Shown piece after piece: positions 38,256 to 46,698 of a stretch of 64,000 nucleotides of DNA (position 1 is its first letter; the number at the start of each line of letters is the position of its first letter). Origin of the DNA: an uncultured Opitutales bacterium. GTDB lineage: Bacteria; Verrucomicrobiota; Verrucomicrobiia; Opitutales; Intestinicryptomonadaceae. Position numbers and translations under genes: made by a program. The stretch lies in assembly GCA_944389195.1 (NCBI GenBank), contig CALXLM010000017.1:1-64000 (forward strand). The letters are read 5' to 3'. Below the pieces are notes generated by a model that saw only the letters and a list, made by a program, of their open reading frames with translations, was not told the DNA's origin and searched no databases.

Positions 38256-40139
38256 TCAAGTCAAAAACCTGCTTTTTGCAAAAAAACGTTTTAATGCAAG
38301 GTAGGCCAAATTGGCAAAACAGAGGGCGACAAACCAGTCTCCGTGTCTTACATAAAAAGTGTCGCCTGCTTTAAAATTCTTGTAGAAAACAACATCGGCA
38401 TATCCTGCGCCTCTGAAATATATTGAATTGCCCGAATCTACAAGCGGCGACGGGCGTCTTATCGCCAGAGTTGTCGGGTCGATTTGGTTTCCCGAAGGGT
38501 CGGATATTTTCAGGGAGCGCGACGGAGCGGGCGTATCGGCGTTCCATGTGGTGTTATCGCCGTTTCTAAGGTCGAAAGCAGGACGCATGGCTCCGTATTG
38601 GTCGAATACCGCGCTGAGGCCGTTGTTGGAGGCTCGCATGAGCGGCAGGCGGGTGGATACGGCCTGAAAAGCGGAGTGCGCGGCGTGCTGCCATGCCCCT
38701 CCCTCTCTTCCGTACCATGAATCGTTTGTGCATACAAAGAGAATGTCGGCTCCTTCAAGGGCGAGTTCCCTGCCGAGGCGCGGGAATATGTCTTCATAGC
38801 ATATCATGGCGCCAATTTTATAGTTTTTCCCTTTTATTTCGAGATTTAGAAGCGTCGGATAATCTCCCGCTTTCATGTTTCCCACAGGCACAACCTTGCC
38901 CAGCCATTTGCACCACGACGGCGTGTATTCCCCAAACGGCACAAGCTTGCGCTTTGCGTAAAATTTTTCGGAGAGTCCGCTTTTGGGCGATACGGCAAAT
39001 GCGCAGCCCTGCGCGCATTCTTCGGAGTAATCATAAGCCATGTTTCCCATTAGGATCGGCATTGAATTTTTTGACGACAAATCTTCTATCCATTTCCGCA
39101 TTTGCGGGCAGCCCAATACGGGCCAACGCGGAGGCGTCGCCGCCTCGGGCCAAAGCGCAACGTCAACGTCGGCCGACTTTAGGCCTTCGGTAAGCCGTTT
39201 TATTGTTTTTAGGTTTTGTTCGGCAAGGGATTCGTTCCACTTTAATATTCCGGCAAAATCGGTTTGAACCATTCCGGCGCAGAAGGCGTTTTCGCGGTTT
39301 TGGGGAGAGGGCATCTTCGATACGTAAATCCACACGCTGGAAAGCGCGAGGCACAGGGCGATGTAAAATTCTGGAGAGAATCGGGAAAAGGGCGGGCGCC
39401 CGGAAAAATTGTTCTCTATTTTCCATTTGTGCGCCGCAAAAAGCCTGTATATGTATTCCGCCGCCGCCAGATTGAAAAATATCAAAACAAAAGACACAAT
39501 CCATACGCCTCCATATTCTGCGGCCTGCATGGATACCGGGCGCATCCATTGCGTGTGCGCCAAAAGGTTCCACGGAAACCCTGAAAACATCCACGAGCGC
39601 AGCCATTCGAGAGCCACCCAAAGCGCCGCCGCCCCGGAAAGTTTTAACAGGCGGGTTGCGTGTCCCTCTTCAAGCGACGGGAGCATGCGCGGAAGGAGCG
39701 CGTACCACGGAAATACGAAAAGCCCGGCTACTGCGAGCGGCAGCAATACGAGAGCCGCGTATCCGGCCGGAGGATAAACATGCCTTATCCACACCAGCAT
39801 TGCGACCCACGCTATGTAGGAAAACGCGAATGTAGAAGTAAGCCATATTTTTCGCCCGTCAGACAAATTGCTCGGATTTTCAGAAAACGTTTCGGGGTTT
39901 GACCGGACCAAAGCGGGGGAGTGCGCCGCGGAAGGTTCGAATGGCGGGCATATCACTTTGGCTTCGCGGCACGGCGGGTTTCCAGCGCACAGAAAGCGGC
40001 AGGCTAAGATTGCCGGCACGGCGAACACATAGGCAAACTCGGCGACGCCGAACGGCTCGAACGCCGCAGTGTACATGCAGAAGGAAAATGCGACGGCGCA
40101 TGCTGCCGCCGCATTTTTGAGCTTGCCTATTCTTCCCAT
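38256..40139 (-). CDS. lnt: Apolipoprotein N-acyltransferase
   Basis: Lnt adds the third acyl chain to the N-terminal cysteine of lipoproteins in the inner membrane. The 627-residue protein has an N-terminal multi-helix domain with [36 protein letters not shown] and a carbon-nitrogen hydrolase domain whose triad is visible: Glu in ALWPEAATP, Lys in KRKLVPFGE and Cys in MICYEDIFP. It ends with a last membrane helix. It is about 100 residues longer than usual, partly from a hydrophilic insert near residues 53-95. Its start overlaps the end of secA by 13 bases. Several predicted lipoproteins in the window are likely substrates. Confidence 0.93.
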
Positions 40140-43132
40140 TTTTCGAGGCGCCAGCCTTCTTCTATGATGAGCGGTTCGGCCTTTTTAAACTTTAGCGTCC
40201 GGGTTTCGCCGCCCTTTGATATGGTCACGGTGCTGTTTCTGCCGATTTTTGGAAGTTCAACATGCGGCCTGACGTTCGGCAATTCTATCTGCTTTTTTGG
40301 TTCGGAATGGCGGCCGGCTCCCGCCCGGCGCGCCGCGGCGTCCGCGCGCGCTTCCGCCTCGTCTGCCGACGTCCTCACCTTTTTTTGCACGCGCTCTATC
40401 ATGGCTTGGAGAGCCTCCATGCTTGACGCGCTGCGGAAAATGCCCATGCAAACGTCGTTGCGGATTCTTCCCATGAGAGATTCGAAGAATTTGTACGCTT
40501 CGCTCTTGTATTCGTTTAGCGGATCTTTCTGCCCGTACCCGCGCAATCCTATGCTGCGGCGCAAATCCTCCATTTCCGTCAGGTGGTCCTGCCAGTTTTT
40601 GTCGAGGGCGCGCATGAGGACGAATCTTTCGATCGCCTTTAGCGCTTCGGGATCCTCCACTTCCTCGCGTATTTTGTAAACCGACTTGATTTCATCGACT
40701 ATTATGCGGGTTATTTCGTCGGGCGCCTTGTTTTCAAGCTGCTCCGGCACGACCGCAATCGGGAAACGGCTCGTCACCCAGCTGCACAAAGCCTGAAGGT
40801 CTGACTTTTCGGGCGCGGCCCCGTTTGGCGATATGACCGATATGCGCTCGTCGAGCTCGTCGCAAATAAAGTCGAAGACGAGCTTTCGGGTATCGTCTGT
40901 TTCGAGTGTCTCGTTCCTAAGGCCGTATATAATCTCGCGCTGTTTATTGAGGACATCGTCGTATTGCAGCAGCCGCTTGCGCATCGAGTAGTTTTGGTTT
41001 TCGACGGTTTTTTGGGCGCGCTCTATCGAACGGTTTAGAAGAGGATGGTCGAGCGGCTGCCCCTCTTGGAATGTCTTTTGAAGAATGCGCGCAAGGGGCC
41101 CGCTCCCGAAAATTCTAAGGAGGTCGTCCTCGAGGGACACGAGAAACTTTGAAAGCCCGTTGTCTCCCTGCCTGGCGCAACGGCCGCGCAGCTGCCTGTC
41201 GATGCGCCTTGCCTCGTGGCGTTCGGTTCCCAAAACGTACAGCCCCCCGAGTTCGTTTACGCCGTCGCCGAGTTTTATGTCGGTACCCCTTCCTGCCATG
41301 TTTGTGGCTATGGTCACCGCGCCGCGCTGCCCGGCTTGCGCTACTATTTCCGCCTCCTGTTGGTGGTGCTTGGCGTTTAGAACCGTGTGGGCGATGTTTC
41401 TGCGCTTAAGCATTCTGCTTAAAACTTCGCTCGCCTCCACCGAGGCCGTGCCCACAAGCACCGGCTGCCCGCGTTTGTGCGCTGCTTGGATTTCGTCTAT
41501 GGCTGCGTTGTATTTCTCGCGCCTCGTCTTGTAAATTACATCGTTTTTGTCTATGCGCCGGCAGGGCTTGTTGGTGGGTATTGCCATCACGTTCAGCCCG
41601 TATATGTCGTGGAACTCCTGGGCTTCGGTTTCCGCGGTTCCTGTCATGCCGGCGAGTTTCTCGTAGAGCCGGAAATAGTTTTGAATTGTGATGGTTGCGT
41701 ATGTCTTAGTTTCCTTTTCTATGGCCACGCCTTCTTTGGCTTCCACAGCCTGGTGCAGACCTTCGCTCCAACGCCTTCCGTACATTATGCGCCCCGTGTT
41801 GGGGTCGACTATGTGCACTTTGCCGTCCTGAACAACGTACTCGATGTCCTTTTCATAAATCGAATACGCCCTCAGCAGCTGGCTTATGCAGTGGATATAT
41901 TCGGAAAGCCTTATAAAATCGTCTTCGGCCTTCATCTTCATTTCCTGCCTCTGCTTGGCGTCGAGGGAAGCGTCGGAGTCTATGTTGACGAAAATCGTCG
42001 GCAGATCCGGAAGCACGAATGCGTCCGAGTTTTCCGGGGCGACGGCGTTGCGGCCGCGTTCGGTAAGGTCGCTGGTGTGCTGCTTTTCGTCTATGGTATA
42101 GTAAAGCTCCTCCTTGTATTTGAAGCGGTCGAACTTGCGAAGGTCCGAGGCCATTTCCATGTCGATTTTGTCGAGCTTCTTGCGGAGCTCGCCGTTTTCC
42201 ATCAGTTGCCGCAAGATTCGGTTCTTGGGCGCGCCCATTTTGACCTGCCACATTTTTATGATTGTAGGCTCGTCTATTTCTCCGCCGGAGTCCGCCACCG
42301 CCTTGACTTGGTTTATGAGCGTATTGCAGAGGCCTACCTGCAGCTTTACAACCTTCTCTATGGATGGTTTCAGCTCGTTGAACGGAAGCTCGTGGTCCTC
42401 CTGTATCGGGCCGGATATGATGAGGGGGGTTCGTGCTTCGTCTATGAGAATGGAGTCAACCTCGTCAACGATACAGTAGTAGTGGGGGCGCTGCACTTGG
42501 GCCTCCTTGCTTGTCGCCATTCCGTTGTCGCGCAGGTAATCGAATCCGAATTCGCTCGCTGTTCCGTATGTGATGTCGGCCATGTATGCTTTGGCCTTTT
42601 CCTCCATATCCTGCATGTTGTATATCCAGGAAACGGACAGCCCGAGAAAATTATACAGATACCCCATCCATTCCGAGTCGCGCCGCGCGAGGTATTCGTT
42701 GACCGTCACAAGGTGGCAGCCTTTCCCGGCGAGCGCGTTCAGATAGAGCGGAAGAGTTGCCACAAGCGTTTTGCCTTCGCCCGTCGCCATTTCGGCGATC
42801 TTGTTTTGGTGCAGCGCTATGCCGCCTATGAGCTGGACGTCGTAGTGGACCATTTGCCATTCTATTTCGTGCCCGCAAACCTCCACCTTTTTGCCGCAGA
42901 GCCTCCGCGCCGCGTTCTTGACCGCAGCGAAAGCCTCGGGAAGCAGGGAGTCGAGCGATTCCCCTTCAGCGTAGCGGCGTTTGAATTCGTCGGTTTTGGC
43001 CCTCAGACCGTCGTCTGTCATCTGCTGGTATTGCTCCTCTATGGCGTTTATTTTTGCGACTATCGGGCGCGTTTTTTTGTAGAACTTTTTATAGTGGCTG
43101 CCCGCGAAAAGTTTAATGATTTTTGATAGCAT
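40127..43132 (-). CDS. secA: Preprotein translocase ATPase SecA
   Basis: SecA drives secretory proteins through SecYEG. The 1001 residues hold nucleotide-binding domain 1 with Walker A MATGEGKT at 115-122 and the [15 protein letters not shown] Walker B/DEAD box, the preprotein cross-linking domain with inserts near 250-400, NBD2 with [13 protein letters not shown] and [11 protein letters not shown], and the helical scaffold. It is long, as in other Verrucomicrobiota-like SecAs. The C-terminal Cys/His zinc motif that binds SecB in Proteobacteria is absent; the chain ends in R-L-E-K-W-E-E. The leader contains a strong hairpin and, upstream of that, a small secreted ORF that may control its translation. 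Confidence 0.97.
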
Positions 43133-43158
43133 GTTTGTCTCGAATATGGTTTTATTTT

Positions 43159-43219
43159 GCGGCTTTACGGCCGCCAGTTTGTTTTTTTACTTCCATCGTC
43201 CGCGCGGAGACGTATGGAA
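43159..43219 (-). promoter_or_regulatory. Hairpin pair in the secA leader
   Basis: Between the small ORF (stop at 43231) and the secA ATG (43132) the minus-strand RNA can form two stems. The first, at 43191-43219, pairs TTCCAT-CGTC with GACG-ATGGAA over 10 base pairs with one bulged A and an 8-base loop. The second, at 43159-43174, is GCGGC/GCCGC with a 6-base loop. The GCGGC strand can alternatively pair with a GCCGC in the last codons of the ORF (ATG CCG CTT). No T run follows, so these are not terminators. The layout resembles a translation-coupled switch. Confidence 0.5.
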
Positions 43220-43230
43220 CGTTGCAACAG

Positions 43231-43593
43231 TTAAAGCGGCATCGCAGACGGAGCCCTAATGGGATTTTGCCGCGGCAAGCCCATGCGCACCGCAAAGGGT
43301 TCGTCCTTCCGCATGGCTGCCGCTCCGCCGCATTTCCGACTCCAATGCGCGCAAAGCGGCGGGTGTGCGAAACCGGCCTCGCAATGGTCGCTTGCGGCTC
43401 GCAAGAGCTTCAAATTGGAATGTTTTGCCGCGTTCGGCATTTTTACCGTCTGAGCGCATATTTTTGCGGAGCGGCATTCTCCAGAAGAAGCCGGAATCTG
43501 CGCGTCTGAAACTTTTGAAAATCCGCACAGGCCGTTGATGCATGCTGCCATGCAACCGAACGCTATCGAAAGACTGTGCGCAAACTTTAACAT
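43231..43593 (-). CDS. Small secreted ORF upstream of secA, candidate SecM-like arrest peptide
   Basis: This 120-codon ORF lies between lepB (50 bases away) and secA (98 bases away) in the same direction. Residues 1-31 look like a signal peptide: Lys3, a hydrophobic stretch (LSIAFGCMAACINGLCGF) and an S-D-A cleavage site. The middle is undistinguished. Near the C-terminus Phe100 precedes P-I-R-A-P-S (111-116) with the same spacing that separates Phe150 from G-I-R-A-G-P in E. coli SecM. SecM stalls the ribosome to raise secA translation when secretion is slow. RAPP/RAPG motifs are also known in other arrest peptides (ApdA, ApdP, ApcA). Codon use is acceptable, but the protein has no family match I know and could be a chance frame. 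Confidence 0.45.
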   Translation of the reverse strand: MLKFAHSLSIAFGCMAACINGLCGFSKVSDAQIPASSGECRSAKICAQTVKMPNAAKHSNLKLLRAASDHCEAGFAHPPLCAHWSRKCGGAAAMRKDEPFAVRMGLPRQNPIRAPSAMPL

Positions 43594-43643: not shown

Positions 43644-44885
43644 CTATTTTGTGGCCCCCCAGCGCGACGTAAACGGATAGAATATTATTAGCGACTTTCC
43701 CACGAGAGCTTTTTCAGGGACTTCCCCCCAGTACCGGCTGTCGAGGCTGTTTGCGGAATTGTCGCCCATGGCGTAGTAGTGCTTCGGCGAAACGACAACG
43801 TCGCCGTGCTCCTTGAATGAGCCGTCTTTTTTATAGCCGCAATAAAGGCCCTCCCTCTTAGCGTTTGATTCGAAAGCGGGCGAACCCGCAATGGGCTTCC
43901 CGTTCCTAAAAAGGGTATCGCCCTCTATGCTGAGTTTGTCGCCGCCCTGTCCGACCAGCCTTTTTATATAATATTTGTCGTCGGGAATTCCTCCGTTCAT
44001 TAGCGTCATGCCTTCGCAATATTTGGTTCTGAAAACGATAGGATCTCCGATTTTCGGCTTTTTGAAATTATAGGTGAATCTGTCCACAAACAGCATGTCG
44101 CCGCCGAGTATGTCGAAATTCAGGAACTTTTCCCCCTTTTCAACCGTTCCGAGGCGCATCATCCATTTGCCGTTTCTTTCCACGATAGAATTTTTTTCGA
44201 GGTCGAAAGTTTTTGCGACGACTTCGTCTATCGGAAAATCGGCGGGCACGGCGAGTTCCATCGGCGTGTCTCCTATGAAGAACTTGTAGCAGCGCTCGTA
44301 GGTGGGCCATACGAAGAATTTTTTTACGGGTCTTACGTCGGCCGCGAAAAGCCCCTTTCCCCGGGCTGCCGCCGGAGAATTTATTTCGATATACAGTTCG
44401 CCAGATGCCGGCGCTGTCATGGAGTAATTGCCGGCGGCAAGAGTAGCAAATCGCCAAAGTTTTTCCGGAAGGCTCGGGGAGGGTATACCGTCTTTCCCTC
44501 CATATACTTGGCTTGTCATGCCGTAAAATGACGGGTACATCGAATTAGTGGGGATTTTGAAAGGCTGCAAAAAGAAACTCCGAATGCCTATGGCTAAAAT
44601 TCCCGCCACAATAATCATGTCTGTGTAGTCCGCCCATGCCGACAGGGGATAAACCGCGCCGCCCCATTTTCGCATGAGCTTTTCAAGTTTTTCGGCGCAG
44701 CTTTCATATTCCGCGGTTCCGAGTTTTCCGTCGCCCACGAGGTTTTCGGCGCGCTCTATCAAATCCGACATCGCCTTGGCGTCGGAAGGGTCCATTACGT
44801 CGCAGCGGTAGTTGTACACTTTGTACGCCGTGCCGATAAGGTCTTTGGCACGCTTACGTTTCTTATTTTCAAAAAAACCGAACAT
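43644..44885 (-). CDS. lepB: Signal peptidase I
   Basis: LepB removes signal peptides at the outer face of the inner membrane. The 413-residue product has a cytoplasmic N-terminal region of about 85 residues, one membrane helix (about 88-103) and the catalytic Ser115 in I-P-T-N-S-M-Y-P. Later come GGDMLFVDRFTYNFKKPKIGDPIVF, the general-base lysine in YYIKRLVG, and AMGDNSANSLDSRYWG. The catalytic Ser and Lys are separated by an insert of about 130 residues that is absent from compact LepBs. It follows lepA by 13 bases, the classic lepA-lepB arrangement. Confidence 0.93.
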   Translation of the reverse strand: MFGFFENKKRKRAKDLIGTAYKVYNYRCDVMDPSDAKAMSDLIERAENLVGDGKLGTAEYESCAEKLEKLMRKWGGAVYPLSAWADYTDMIIVAGILAIGIRSFFLQPFKIPTNSMYPSFYGMTSQVYGGKDGIPSPSLPEKLWRFATLAAGNYSMTAPASGELYIEINSPAAARGKGLFAADVRPVKKFFVWPTYERCYKFFIGDTPMELAVPADFPIDEVVAKTFDLEKNSIVERNGKWMMRLGTVEKGEKFLNFDILGGDMLFVDRFTYNFKKPKIGDPIVFRTKYCEGMTLMNGGIPDDKYYIKRLVGQGGDKLSIEGDTLFRNGKPIAGSPAFESNAKREGLYCGYKKDGSFKEHGDVVVSPKHYYAMGDNSANSLDSRYWGEVPEKALVGKSLIIFYPFTSRWGATK

Positions 44886-44898
44886 GGCTTCTGCCTTT

Positions 44899-46698
44899 CT
44901 AAGAGTTGGATTTCAGCACATTGACGAACGCCTCCTGTGGTATGGAGACTTTGCCTATCTGCTTCATTCTCTTTTTGCCTTCCTTTTGCTTCTCAAGCAG
45001 CTTCTTCTTGCGCGTTATGTCGCCGCCGTAGCATTTTGCAGTGACATCCTTCCTGAAAGAGCCTATCGTTTCTCGGGCAATTATTTTGCCGCCGATGGCC
45101 GCCTGAATCGCAACCTTGAACATTTGGCGCGGCAGAATGTCCTTCAGCTTTGCGCAAAGCGCGCGGCCCTTCTGTTCGGCCTTGTCGGCGTGCACGATAG
45201 ACGAAAATGCGTCTATATGCTCGCCGTTGACGAGTATGTCGAGGCGCACGAGCTTCGACTCCGCGTAGCCGTCCATTTCGTAGTCCAGGCTGCCGTATCC
45301 GCGGGTTATGCTCTTGAGCCTGTCGTTAAAGTCTATGAGTATTTCGTTCAGCGGAAGCGAGCATGTCAGCATTACGCGGGTTTCGTCAATAAGTTCGGTC
45401 TTTTGGCAGAACCCGCGCTTTTCCGATACGAGTGCGAGCATGTCGCCTATCGATTCTGTGGGAATCAGTATGTTTGCGGAAATCATGGGCTCGTAAATCG
45501 CCTTTATTTCTGTCGGATCCGGAAGCCTGCACGGGTTGTCTATCTCGATTTTAGAACCGTCATGCAGGTCCAATTTATAAACTACGCTCGGGTACGTCGA
45601 TATGATGTCGAGGTCGTACTCCCTGCGCAGGCGCTCCTGCACGACTTCCATGTGGAGAAGCCCGAGAAATCCGCACCTAAAACCGAATCCGAGCGCCGCC
45701 GAGGTCTCGGCCTGATAGACAAGCGCGGAATCGTTTAGTTGCAGTTTTGCTATCGAAACCTTCAGCTTTTCGTATTCGGAGGTGTCCACTGGGTATATTC
45801 CCGAAAACACCATGGGCTTTACCTCCTTGTAGCCGTGGAGCATTTCCGCAGCCGGCTTAGACGCCGACGTTATAGTGTCGCCGATTCTTATGTCGGCCAC
45901 CTCCTTGATGTTGCCGGCAACGTATCCGGTGCAGCCGGCATCGAGTTGGGCTTCCGCAGTCATTGTGGGCGTAAAGCGCCCGACCTCCTTTACGGTCGTG
46001 CGGCGGCCGTTGCCCATAAAAAGTATTTCGTCGCCGGCTTTTATCGAGCCCGAAAAAACCCTCACATAGCATATCACGCCTTTGTACGAATCGAACATGC
46101 AGTCGAACACGAGGGCGCGCGTCGCCGGATAATCCGCCAGACGCGGGGGCGGTATGCGATCTATTACTGCGTCGAGGATTTCTGAAACCCCCGCGCCTGA
46201 TTTTCCGCTCGCCAAAATGGCGTCTTCGGCGGGTATCGCCAGAATGTCTTCCACCTGTTTTTTGCAAAGCTCCGGTTGGGCGCTCGGAAGGTCTATCTTG
46301 TTTATTACGGGGATTATTTCGAGGTTTTGAGCTACGGCAAGATGAGCGTTCGCCACGGTTTGCGCCTCGACGCCCTGCGCTGCGTCTATCAGGAGAACTG
46401 CGCCTTCGCATGCGGCAAGAGACCGCGACACTTCGTACGAAAAATCGACGTGCCCGGGGGTGTCGATTAGGTTTAATAGATACTCCCTGCCGTTCCGGGC
46501 ATATTTCATCGTGACCGGGTGGCACTTGATGGTTATGCCCCGTTCCCTTTCCAAATCCATGGAGTCGAGCATTTGGTCTTGCATGTCGCGCTTTTGTATG
46601 GTTCCGGTCTTTTCCAACAGCCTGTCGGACAGCGTCGTTTTGCCGTGGTCAACGTGCGCTATAATGCAAAAATTTCTGATGTTTTCCAAGTTTTCCAT
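44899..46698 (-). CDS. lepA: Elongation factor 4 (LepA)
   Basis: LepA is a ribosomal GTPase related to EF-G. The 599-residue protein has G1 AHVDHGKTTLSDRLL, G2/G3 RERGITIKCHPV and DTPGHVDFSYEVSRSL, G4 NKIDLP, then domains II, III and V and the LepA-specific C-terminal domain (GGKIIARETI, AKCYGGDITRKKKLLEKQKEGKKRMK). The length is standard. The leader has no Shine-Dalgarno sequence. It begins the lepA-lepB-(small ORF)-secA-lnt block and is divergent from the SOD gene over 178 bases. Confidence 0.97.
   Translation of the reverse strand: MENLENIRNFCIIAHVDHGKTTLSDRLLEKTGTIQKRDMQDQMLDSMDLERERGITIKCHPVTMKYARNGREYLLNLIDTPGHVDFSYEVSRSLAACEGAVLLIDAAQGVEAQTVANAHLAVAQNLEIIPVINKIDLPSAQPELCKKQVEDILAIPAEDAILASGKSGAGVSEILDAVIDRIPPPRLADYPATRALVFDCMFDSYKGVICYVRVFSGSIKAGDEILFMGNGRRTTVKEVGRFTPTMTAEAQLDAGCTGYVAGNIKEVADIRIGDTITSASKPAAEMLHGYKEVKPMVFSGIYPVDTSEYEKLKVSIAKLQLNDSALVYQAETSAALGFGFRCGFLGLLHMEVVQERLRREYDLDIISTYPSVVYKLDLHDGSKIEIDNPCRLPDPTEIKAIYEPMISANILIPTESIGDMLALVSEKRGFCQKTELIDETRVMLTCSLPLNEILIDFNDRLKSITRGYGSLDYEMDGYAESKLVRLDILVNGEHIDAFSSIVHADKAEQKGRALCAKLKDILPRQMFKVAIQAAIGGKIIARETIGSFRKDVTAKCYGGDITRKKKLLEKQKEGKKRMKQIGKVSIPQEAFVNVLKSNS

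Follow-up and report, generated by a model that had tools for sequence, protein, structure and literature searches.

Known arrest peptides upstream of secretion genes

The arrest sequence of SecM is F-x4-W-I-x4-G-I-R-A-G-P. For the RAPP-like arrest peptides, the query motifs of Fujiwara et al. 2024 (PMC10987492) include RAPS, RAPA, RAP-stop and RGPT. Toeprints of these peptides place the third residue of the motif in the P site (PMC10987492; PMC7897499), and the peptidyl-transfer block of ApdA and ApdP has been solved by cryo-EM (PMC10951233). Saturation mutagenesis showed that the Arg is irreplaceable and the Pro nearly so, and that a change of Ala to Gly is permissive in ApdA/ApdP (PMC12992588). 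A Ser, Thr or Ala in the A site is also permissive in ApcA and ApdP (PMC7897499). Long spacers are described as typical of the uORFs before secA or secDF (PMC10987492), and a signal-like N-terminus combined with a long spacer is a hallmark of export-released monitors (PMC10987492; PMC7897499).

The DNA analysed here is a stretch of 64,000 nucleotides (the window) from an uncultured Opitutales bacterium, in which a small upstream ORF (uORF) precedes secA. The first-pass annotation had proposed an independent or highly diverged secretion monitor. The sequence comparison with relatives lends strong support to its idea of an arrest peptide ahead of secA, whereas the tie to SecM fails. Judged from the sequences and from analogy with known systems, the uORF very probably encodes a RAPP-like secretion monitor that is specific to this lineage and acts on secA.

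Gene organization of the lepB-secA region

The uORF (43231..43593, minus strand) begins with ATG and encodes 120 aa, in agreement with the frame first annotated between lepB and secA. It lies 50 nt past lepB and 98 nt ahead of secA. The gene order on the minus strand is a lepA-like GTPase gene (LepA/EF-4, 44899..46698), lepB (signal peptidase I, 413 aa, 43644..44885), the uORF, secA (1001 aa, 40127..43132), which is the presumed regulated gene, and an lnt-like apolipoprotein N-acyltransferase gene (38256..40139). The gaps are 13, 50 and 98 nt, and the lnt-like gene overlaps the end of secA by 13 nt. Because these genes follow each other on one strand with short gaps or an overlap, the region from the lepA-like to the lnt-like gene looks like a single transcription unit. 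No intrinsic terminator was found on the secA strand between the uORF and secA; the sole terminator-like match is on the opposite strand.

The identities of LepB and SecA are backed by family models (TIGR02227 for LepB; TIGR00963 for SecA, 974 bits against a cut-off of 800). The lepA-like and lnt-like genes were named by sequence inspection, with no family search. The uORF protein had no credible match in Pfam, NCBIfam or PDB.

Distribution in the genus and the order

A single-protein search with the uORF gave matches within the same genus in G001, G004, G005, G006 and G008. The DNA upstream of secA was also inspected in every genome of the genus (n = 14), independent of similarity, and counterparts were found in nine of the 14. 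In all eight genomes that carry both genes on one contig (G000, G001, G004, G006, G008, G011, G012 and G013), the counterpart is the ORF directly before secA, at a distance of 64-129 nt; the N-terminus of the G012 member is cut by the contig edge. The counterpart in G005 sits downstream of lepB, and the contig ends near the end of the ORF, before secA. In G002, G003, G007 and G009, secA follows the lepB stop after 24-84 nt, and the gap holds no ORF. SecA was not found in G010, which is therefore uninformative on the uORF. Five of the 14 genomes had no match, which makes the uORF system dispensable.

G010 is a single contig listed as 95% complete, yet neither SecA nor SecD nor any of the uORF profiles had a match in it. 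Such an absence is odd for a near-complete assembly, and it may be that this record is masked or misplaced.

A profile of the nine members, which by its construction is informative only on absence elsewhere, had no match in the rest of the 373 Opitutales genomes, in a kind of search that a short motif can escape. No uORF was found before secDF in 12 genomes of the genus, where a yajC-like gene precedes it. In the SecA tree, all tested carriers fall in one clade of 11 that includes three non-carriers, and three changes are needed. This pattern is compatible with one gain and two losses; the inner branches are weak and poorly resolved inside the genus. The candidate secretion monitor appears to be lineage-specific, in one genus of the Opitutales (Verrucomicrobiota). 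It would add a secretion monitor for this order that is resolved across closely related species, so that gain, loss and drift of the arrest motif are directly readable.

Conservation and selection of the C-terminal motif

The C-termini of members 1-5 are ..PIRAPSAMPL, ..PIRAPSAA, ..RIRAP-stop, ..PIRAPSLLAHNCIS and ..PIRAPSAA, and those of members 6-9 are ..PIRAPASIV, ..LIRAP-stop, ..RARAPSL and ..PIRGPTGCV. The motif lies 0-9 residues from the end and has the consensus (P)-I-R-(A/G)-P, with Arg and the last Pro in 9/9 members, Ile in 8/9 and Ala in 8/9 (Gly once). The position after RAP or RGP reads S, S, stop, S, S, A, stop, S and T, and is never Pro; the tally in the nine genomes is RAPS in five, RAPA and RGPT in one each, and RAP-stop in two. 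The R-(A/G)-P core is fixed, and nearly all of its surroundings turn over. In the window, the conserved candidate arrest motif P111-I-R-A-P-S116 is encoded at 43246..43263 (minus strand). Lys3, the hydrophobic core, S29-D30-A31, Phe100, Ile112 and this motif are all found at the positions given in the first-pass annotation.

The motif is hard to reach by composition. R[AG]P occurs within the last 13 residues in 0.35-3.3% of own-residue shuffles per protein, and was observed in 9/9. Multiplying these chances gives about 10^-17, a figure that should not be read as a probability, since the members come from related species and each locus offered a choice of one to three ORFs. R[AG]P was found in the C-terminal zone of 0/47 long ORFs of the window, and RAP or RGP in that of 0/81 ORFs that precede secA at 80 loci of other lineages.

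The codons of the motif vary synonymously (Arg AGG, CGC, CGT and AGA; Ala GCT, GCC and GCG). At IRAP, pN is 0.15 against a pS of 0.62 (pN/pS 0.24); the ratio is 0.85-0.95 in the 30 preceding codons and 0.52 in codons 2-26. Since synonymous sites are near saturation, it is the amino acids, not the DNA, that are kept at IRAP. The comparison suggests selection on the amino acids at IRAP, with no detectable constraint in the stretch before it. The conservation that the first-pass annotation expected in relatives is borne out: the ORF is kept without frameshifts, and its IRAP codons are selected at the amino-acid level.

These data bear on two other readings. The uORF might be incidental to a non-coding leader, in which selection acts on the DNA or RNA (a structure or an attenuator). 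GC-rich hairpins past the ORF in most relatives would fit such a leader; but the IRAP codons change synonymously and hardly in amino acids, nine diverged genomes keep the frame open, the structural z-scores are modest (+0.4 to -2.25), and the uORF had no Rfam match up to E = 1. A leader at the RNA level is therefore very improbable. Alternatively, the uORF could encode a small exported protein that acts in its own right (for example, as a partner of SecA, LepB or the envelope) and uses its C-terminal peptide for binding or processing. The signal-like N-terminus, the shared direction with lepB and secA, and the selected C-terminal motif would agree with this. However, the stretch before the motif, in which no constraint was detected, is ill-suited to a folded protein, the chain ends right after RAP in two members and runs on for 2-9 residues in others, the substitutions seen are those allowed for arrest, and no family or PDB match was found. 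We consider a separate secreted function improbable, and an arrest peptide explains the motif better.

The two RAP-stop members are L020 (G004) and L027 (G011), in which the uORF before secA stops right after RAP. By analogy with known arrest peptides, these would need arrest at termination, not elongation. The two species are thus a natural test of whether RAP blocks termination as well as elongation.

Signal-like N-terminus and spacer

The first 25 residues are alike across the members (M-x-K-x-A-H-x-L-S-x-A-x-G...ACxxxLCG), and the middle is unlike. Two conserved ends around a variable middle are what a monitoring substrate should show. The signal-peptide-like N-terminus of the window protein covers residues 1-23 (43525..43593, minus strand), with Lys3 and His6 in the n-region and an h-region at about residues 8-22, where the hydrophobic maximum also lies. 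All eight members with an intact N-terminus have a hydrophobic stretch (15-residue mean 1.77-2.09) and a net positive start, as judged by hydropathy, not SignalP. The S-D-A site (S29-D30-A31), which had been annotated as the signal site, is present in the window protein but not kept in relatives; the pattern small-x-Cys/Ala at residues 21-23 is kept instead. For this reason, signal cleavage is likely to occur near Cys23.

The spacer from the signal to the motif is 93 residues in the window protein and 88-117 across the members. With the signal 93 residues back, the N-terminus would be outside the ribosome and open to Sec engagement. These features also bear on a plain constitutive pause, which would set the translational coupling of secA and lnt, or the stability of their mRNA, with no export sensing. 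An A-site residue other than Pro would be consistent with such a pause, whereas the conserved signal-like N-terminus and long spacer are what distinguishes monitors released by export. A pause of this kind is unlikely, though it is the strongest competitor of the export-released secretion monitor.

Comparison with SecM

The position before secA and the I-R-A near the C-terminus are shared with E. coli SecM; moreover, SecM is exported and the uORF N-terminus is signal-like. Beyond this, the uORF lacks the Trp, the Gly and the final Pro, its Phe is not conserved, and no helix that would hide a Shine-Dalgarno sequence is predicted. When the nine members are aligned on the Arg, the column of the SecM Phe reads FAFDSFRNR, that of Trp GAKIFRHAL, that of Ile LVKAFFFLE and that of Gly PPRPPPLRP, followed by IIIIIIIAI. 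The first-pass alignment therefore stands for I, R and A, which are conserved, and fails for Phe, which is not, and for Trp and Gly, which are absent at those places in all relatives. The spacing of 12 residues between Phe100 and Ile112, which had been read as SecM-like, is a coincidence, as Phe is found there in 3/9 members; given these mismatches, Phe100 is there by chance and membership in SecM fails.

The searches agree with the columns. BLASTP against SecM (from NC_000913) gave E = 2.7, hhalign gave a probability of 0.1%, and Pfam SecM had no match among the nine members. SecM homology was rejected on all these grounds. A true homologue with a diverged arrest sequence, sharing both ancestry and the Shine-Dalgarno-unmasking mechanism, would account for the site before secA, the signal sequence, the I-R-A and the motif near the C-terminus; yet the unconserved Phe, Trp, Ile and Gly and the failed searches speak against it, as do the failure to detect a counterpart elsewhere in the order and the absence of any sign of Shine-Dalgarno use in the genes of the window. 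Such shared ancestry is hardly credible.

A Shine-Dalgarno core precedes 7/41 long ATG ORFs of the window, against 15% at random places, which suggests that the lineage is largely Shine-Dalgarno-independent. The 98-nt region between the uORF and secA (43133..43230, minus strand) is also without a Shine-Dalgarno sequence and is A-rich ahead of the secA ATG. Folding predicts a GC-rich hairpin at 43191..43219 with no U tract after it, and a second hairpin at 43159..43174, about 26 nt ahead of the secA start (both minus strand; z = -2.25 for the whole region). Most relatives have GC-rich hairpins after the uORF; these differ among them, with z from +0.4 to -2.25. In the window genome the modelled secA start is unpaired at 0.76 both with and without a ribosome at codon 115, and no large change was seen in relatives. 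A SecM-like RNA switch at the secA start is unsupported by these predictions, as there is no Shine-Dalgarno sequence, the start is mostly unpaired and the structures are not conserved.

Proposed mechanism of the putative secretion monitor

The position of the uORF, its signal-like N-terminus, the spacer of 88-117 residues and the conservation of the motif are observed in the sequences. In the proposed mechanism, the N-terminal signal would bring the nascent chain to Sec during translation of the C-terminus. Pro115 of I-R-A-P (43249..43251) would be held on the P-site tRNA and Ser116 (43246-43248; both minus strand) would be in the A site, by analogy with the toeprints of RAPP-like peptides (PMC10987492; PMC7897499). 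The nascent chain would then block transfer to Ser116, which is Ser, Ala or Thr in most relatives; in two relatives the block would fall at release on the stop codon. The uORF is expected to share the peptidyl-transfer block of ApdA/ApdP. Because the A-site residue is never Pro, the arrest may be weaker than in those peptides.

When export is brisk, the pull on the chain would free the ribosome. If SecA activity falls short, the stall near the uORF end would persist, and the expression of the downstream secA would rise. The stalling, its site and its release by export are modelled on known RAPP-like arrest peptides. That the stall raises secA is suggested by SecM, MifM and VemP and by one RQH member tested with secDF (PMC10987492). 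This coupling of the stall to secA is the weakest step of the proposal. The remaining candidates for it are that the stalled ribosome shields the mRNA against Rho or RNase, or that it displaces the intergenic hairpins. It is a puzzle how a stalled ribosome would raise SecA in a lineage that seemingly does not use Shine-Dalgarno sequences.

A second leader family ending in LLI-stop

Four genomes of the genus carry a second secA gene, with 56% identity in the N-terminal 240 residues. Ahead of this paralogue, each of the four has a small ORF that differs from the RAP uORF and ends in LLI-stop (G000:C29:38822-39220, which is L051:1009-1395, plus strand; L052:984-1382, plus; L053:930-1367, plus; and the ORF before the paralogue in L050, minus). 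These leaders have an N-terminal signal or TM segment, a DKLRxKRR block and a near-invariant C-terminal [AV]LLI-stop. An LFY-like mark lies 31-39 residues ahead of the end, which is about tunnel length. In nine copies, pN/pS is 0.15 in the last three codons against 0.83-0.99 before; TGA is used in 8/9 stops, against 15/47 long ORFs (p about 7e-4).

Profile searches also revealed LLI-stop leaders before CitMHS/ArsB-type ion transporters (L176 of G001, L160 of G005) and before genes for a Na+-translocating oxaloacetate decarboxylase, a Na+ pump (L161 of G004, L168 of G006). The G009 leader (L162) is near a transporter fragment and a Na/Pi cotransporter. Several of the downstream genes are Na+-linked membrane transporters, and the occurrence before transporter and decarboxylase genes indicates that secA is not an obligatory partner of the leader family. 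In the order as a whole, members were seen in this genus only. In G015, from another genus of the same family, a signal-bearing ORF ending in TSFLI-TGA lies 80 nt before the only secA found (L048, minus strand); it is possibly a distant LLI-stop relative.

The LLI-stop leader is a candidate stop-codon arrest peptide with no named relative, and its stalling is a guess from its anatomy. It resembles in kind uA_NSP-stop and uDF_DGMK-stop, which are stop-dependent leaders of PMC10987492, whereas the C-terminal motif differs. It may turn out to be more novel than the RAP family and merits separate study. A broader idea, which we put forward tentatively and with more doubt than confidence, is that the RAP core moved, within one young family, between arrest during elongation (RAP-Ser/Ala/Thr) and arrest at termination (RAP-stop), and that the same genus independently evolved the unrelated LLI-stop arrest leader, mostly with UGA. 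If true, these would form a natural series for the origin and change of arrest peptides.

Comparison with RAPP-like arrest peptides

Judged by sequence, the appropriate comparison for the uORF seems to be with ApcA, ApdA/ApdP and the RQH group, not with SecM. ApdA and ApdP (RAPP, before secDF) likewise have a signal sequence, a long spacer and a RAP at the P site, where it is expected here; they differ in the Pro at the A site, the downstream gene and the phyla. ApcA (RAPG, before yidC, Actinobacteriota) also combines RAP with a small non-Pro A-site residue, and its clustered homologues include RAPS, RAPA, RAPT, RGPT and RAP-stop. However, ApcA has yidC downstream, a TM segment and a shorter spacer and belongs to another phylum; the sequence comparison with it covers the motif. 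Unlike the yidC or secDF of ApcA and ApdA/ApdP, the downstream gene here is secA. The elongation variants in the genus (Ala to Gly inside RAP; Ser, Ala or Thr as the next residue) are all within the published permitted set, and the stop is outside it.

The closest likeness is to the uA_RQH groups of PMC10987492, whose main text does not mention Verrucomicrobiota or Opitutales and whose supplement may already list the family. With hydropathy replacing SignalP, every bioinformatic feature given there for RQH was found: a spacer of >30 residues (88-117 here), an N-terminal secretion signal or TM segment, and a listed C-terminal motif in more than two species of one order (nine genomes here). Like those groups, the family consists of secA uORFs of <300 aa that carry a localisation signal and, close to the C-terminus, a RAPP-like motif; it too occurs in more than two species of a single order and has no other sequence similarity. 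The difference is in the fourth residue, which is Ser, Ala, Thr or stop here and Pro or Gly in the RQH group.
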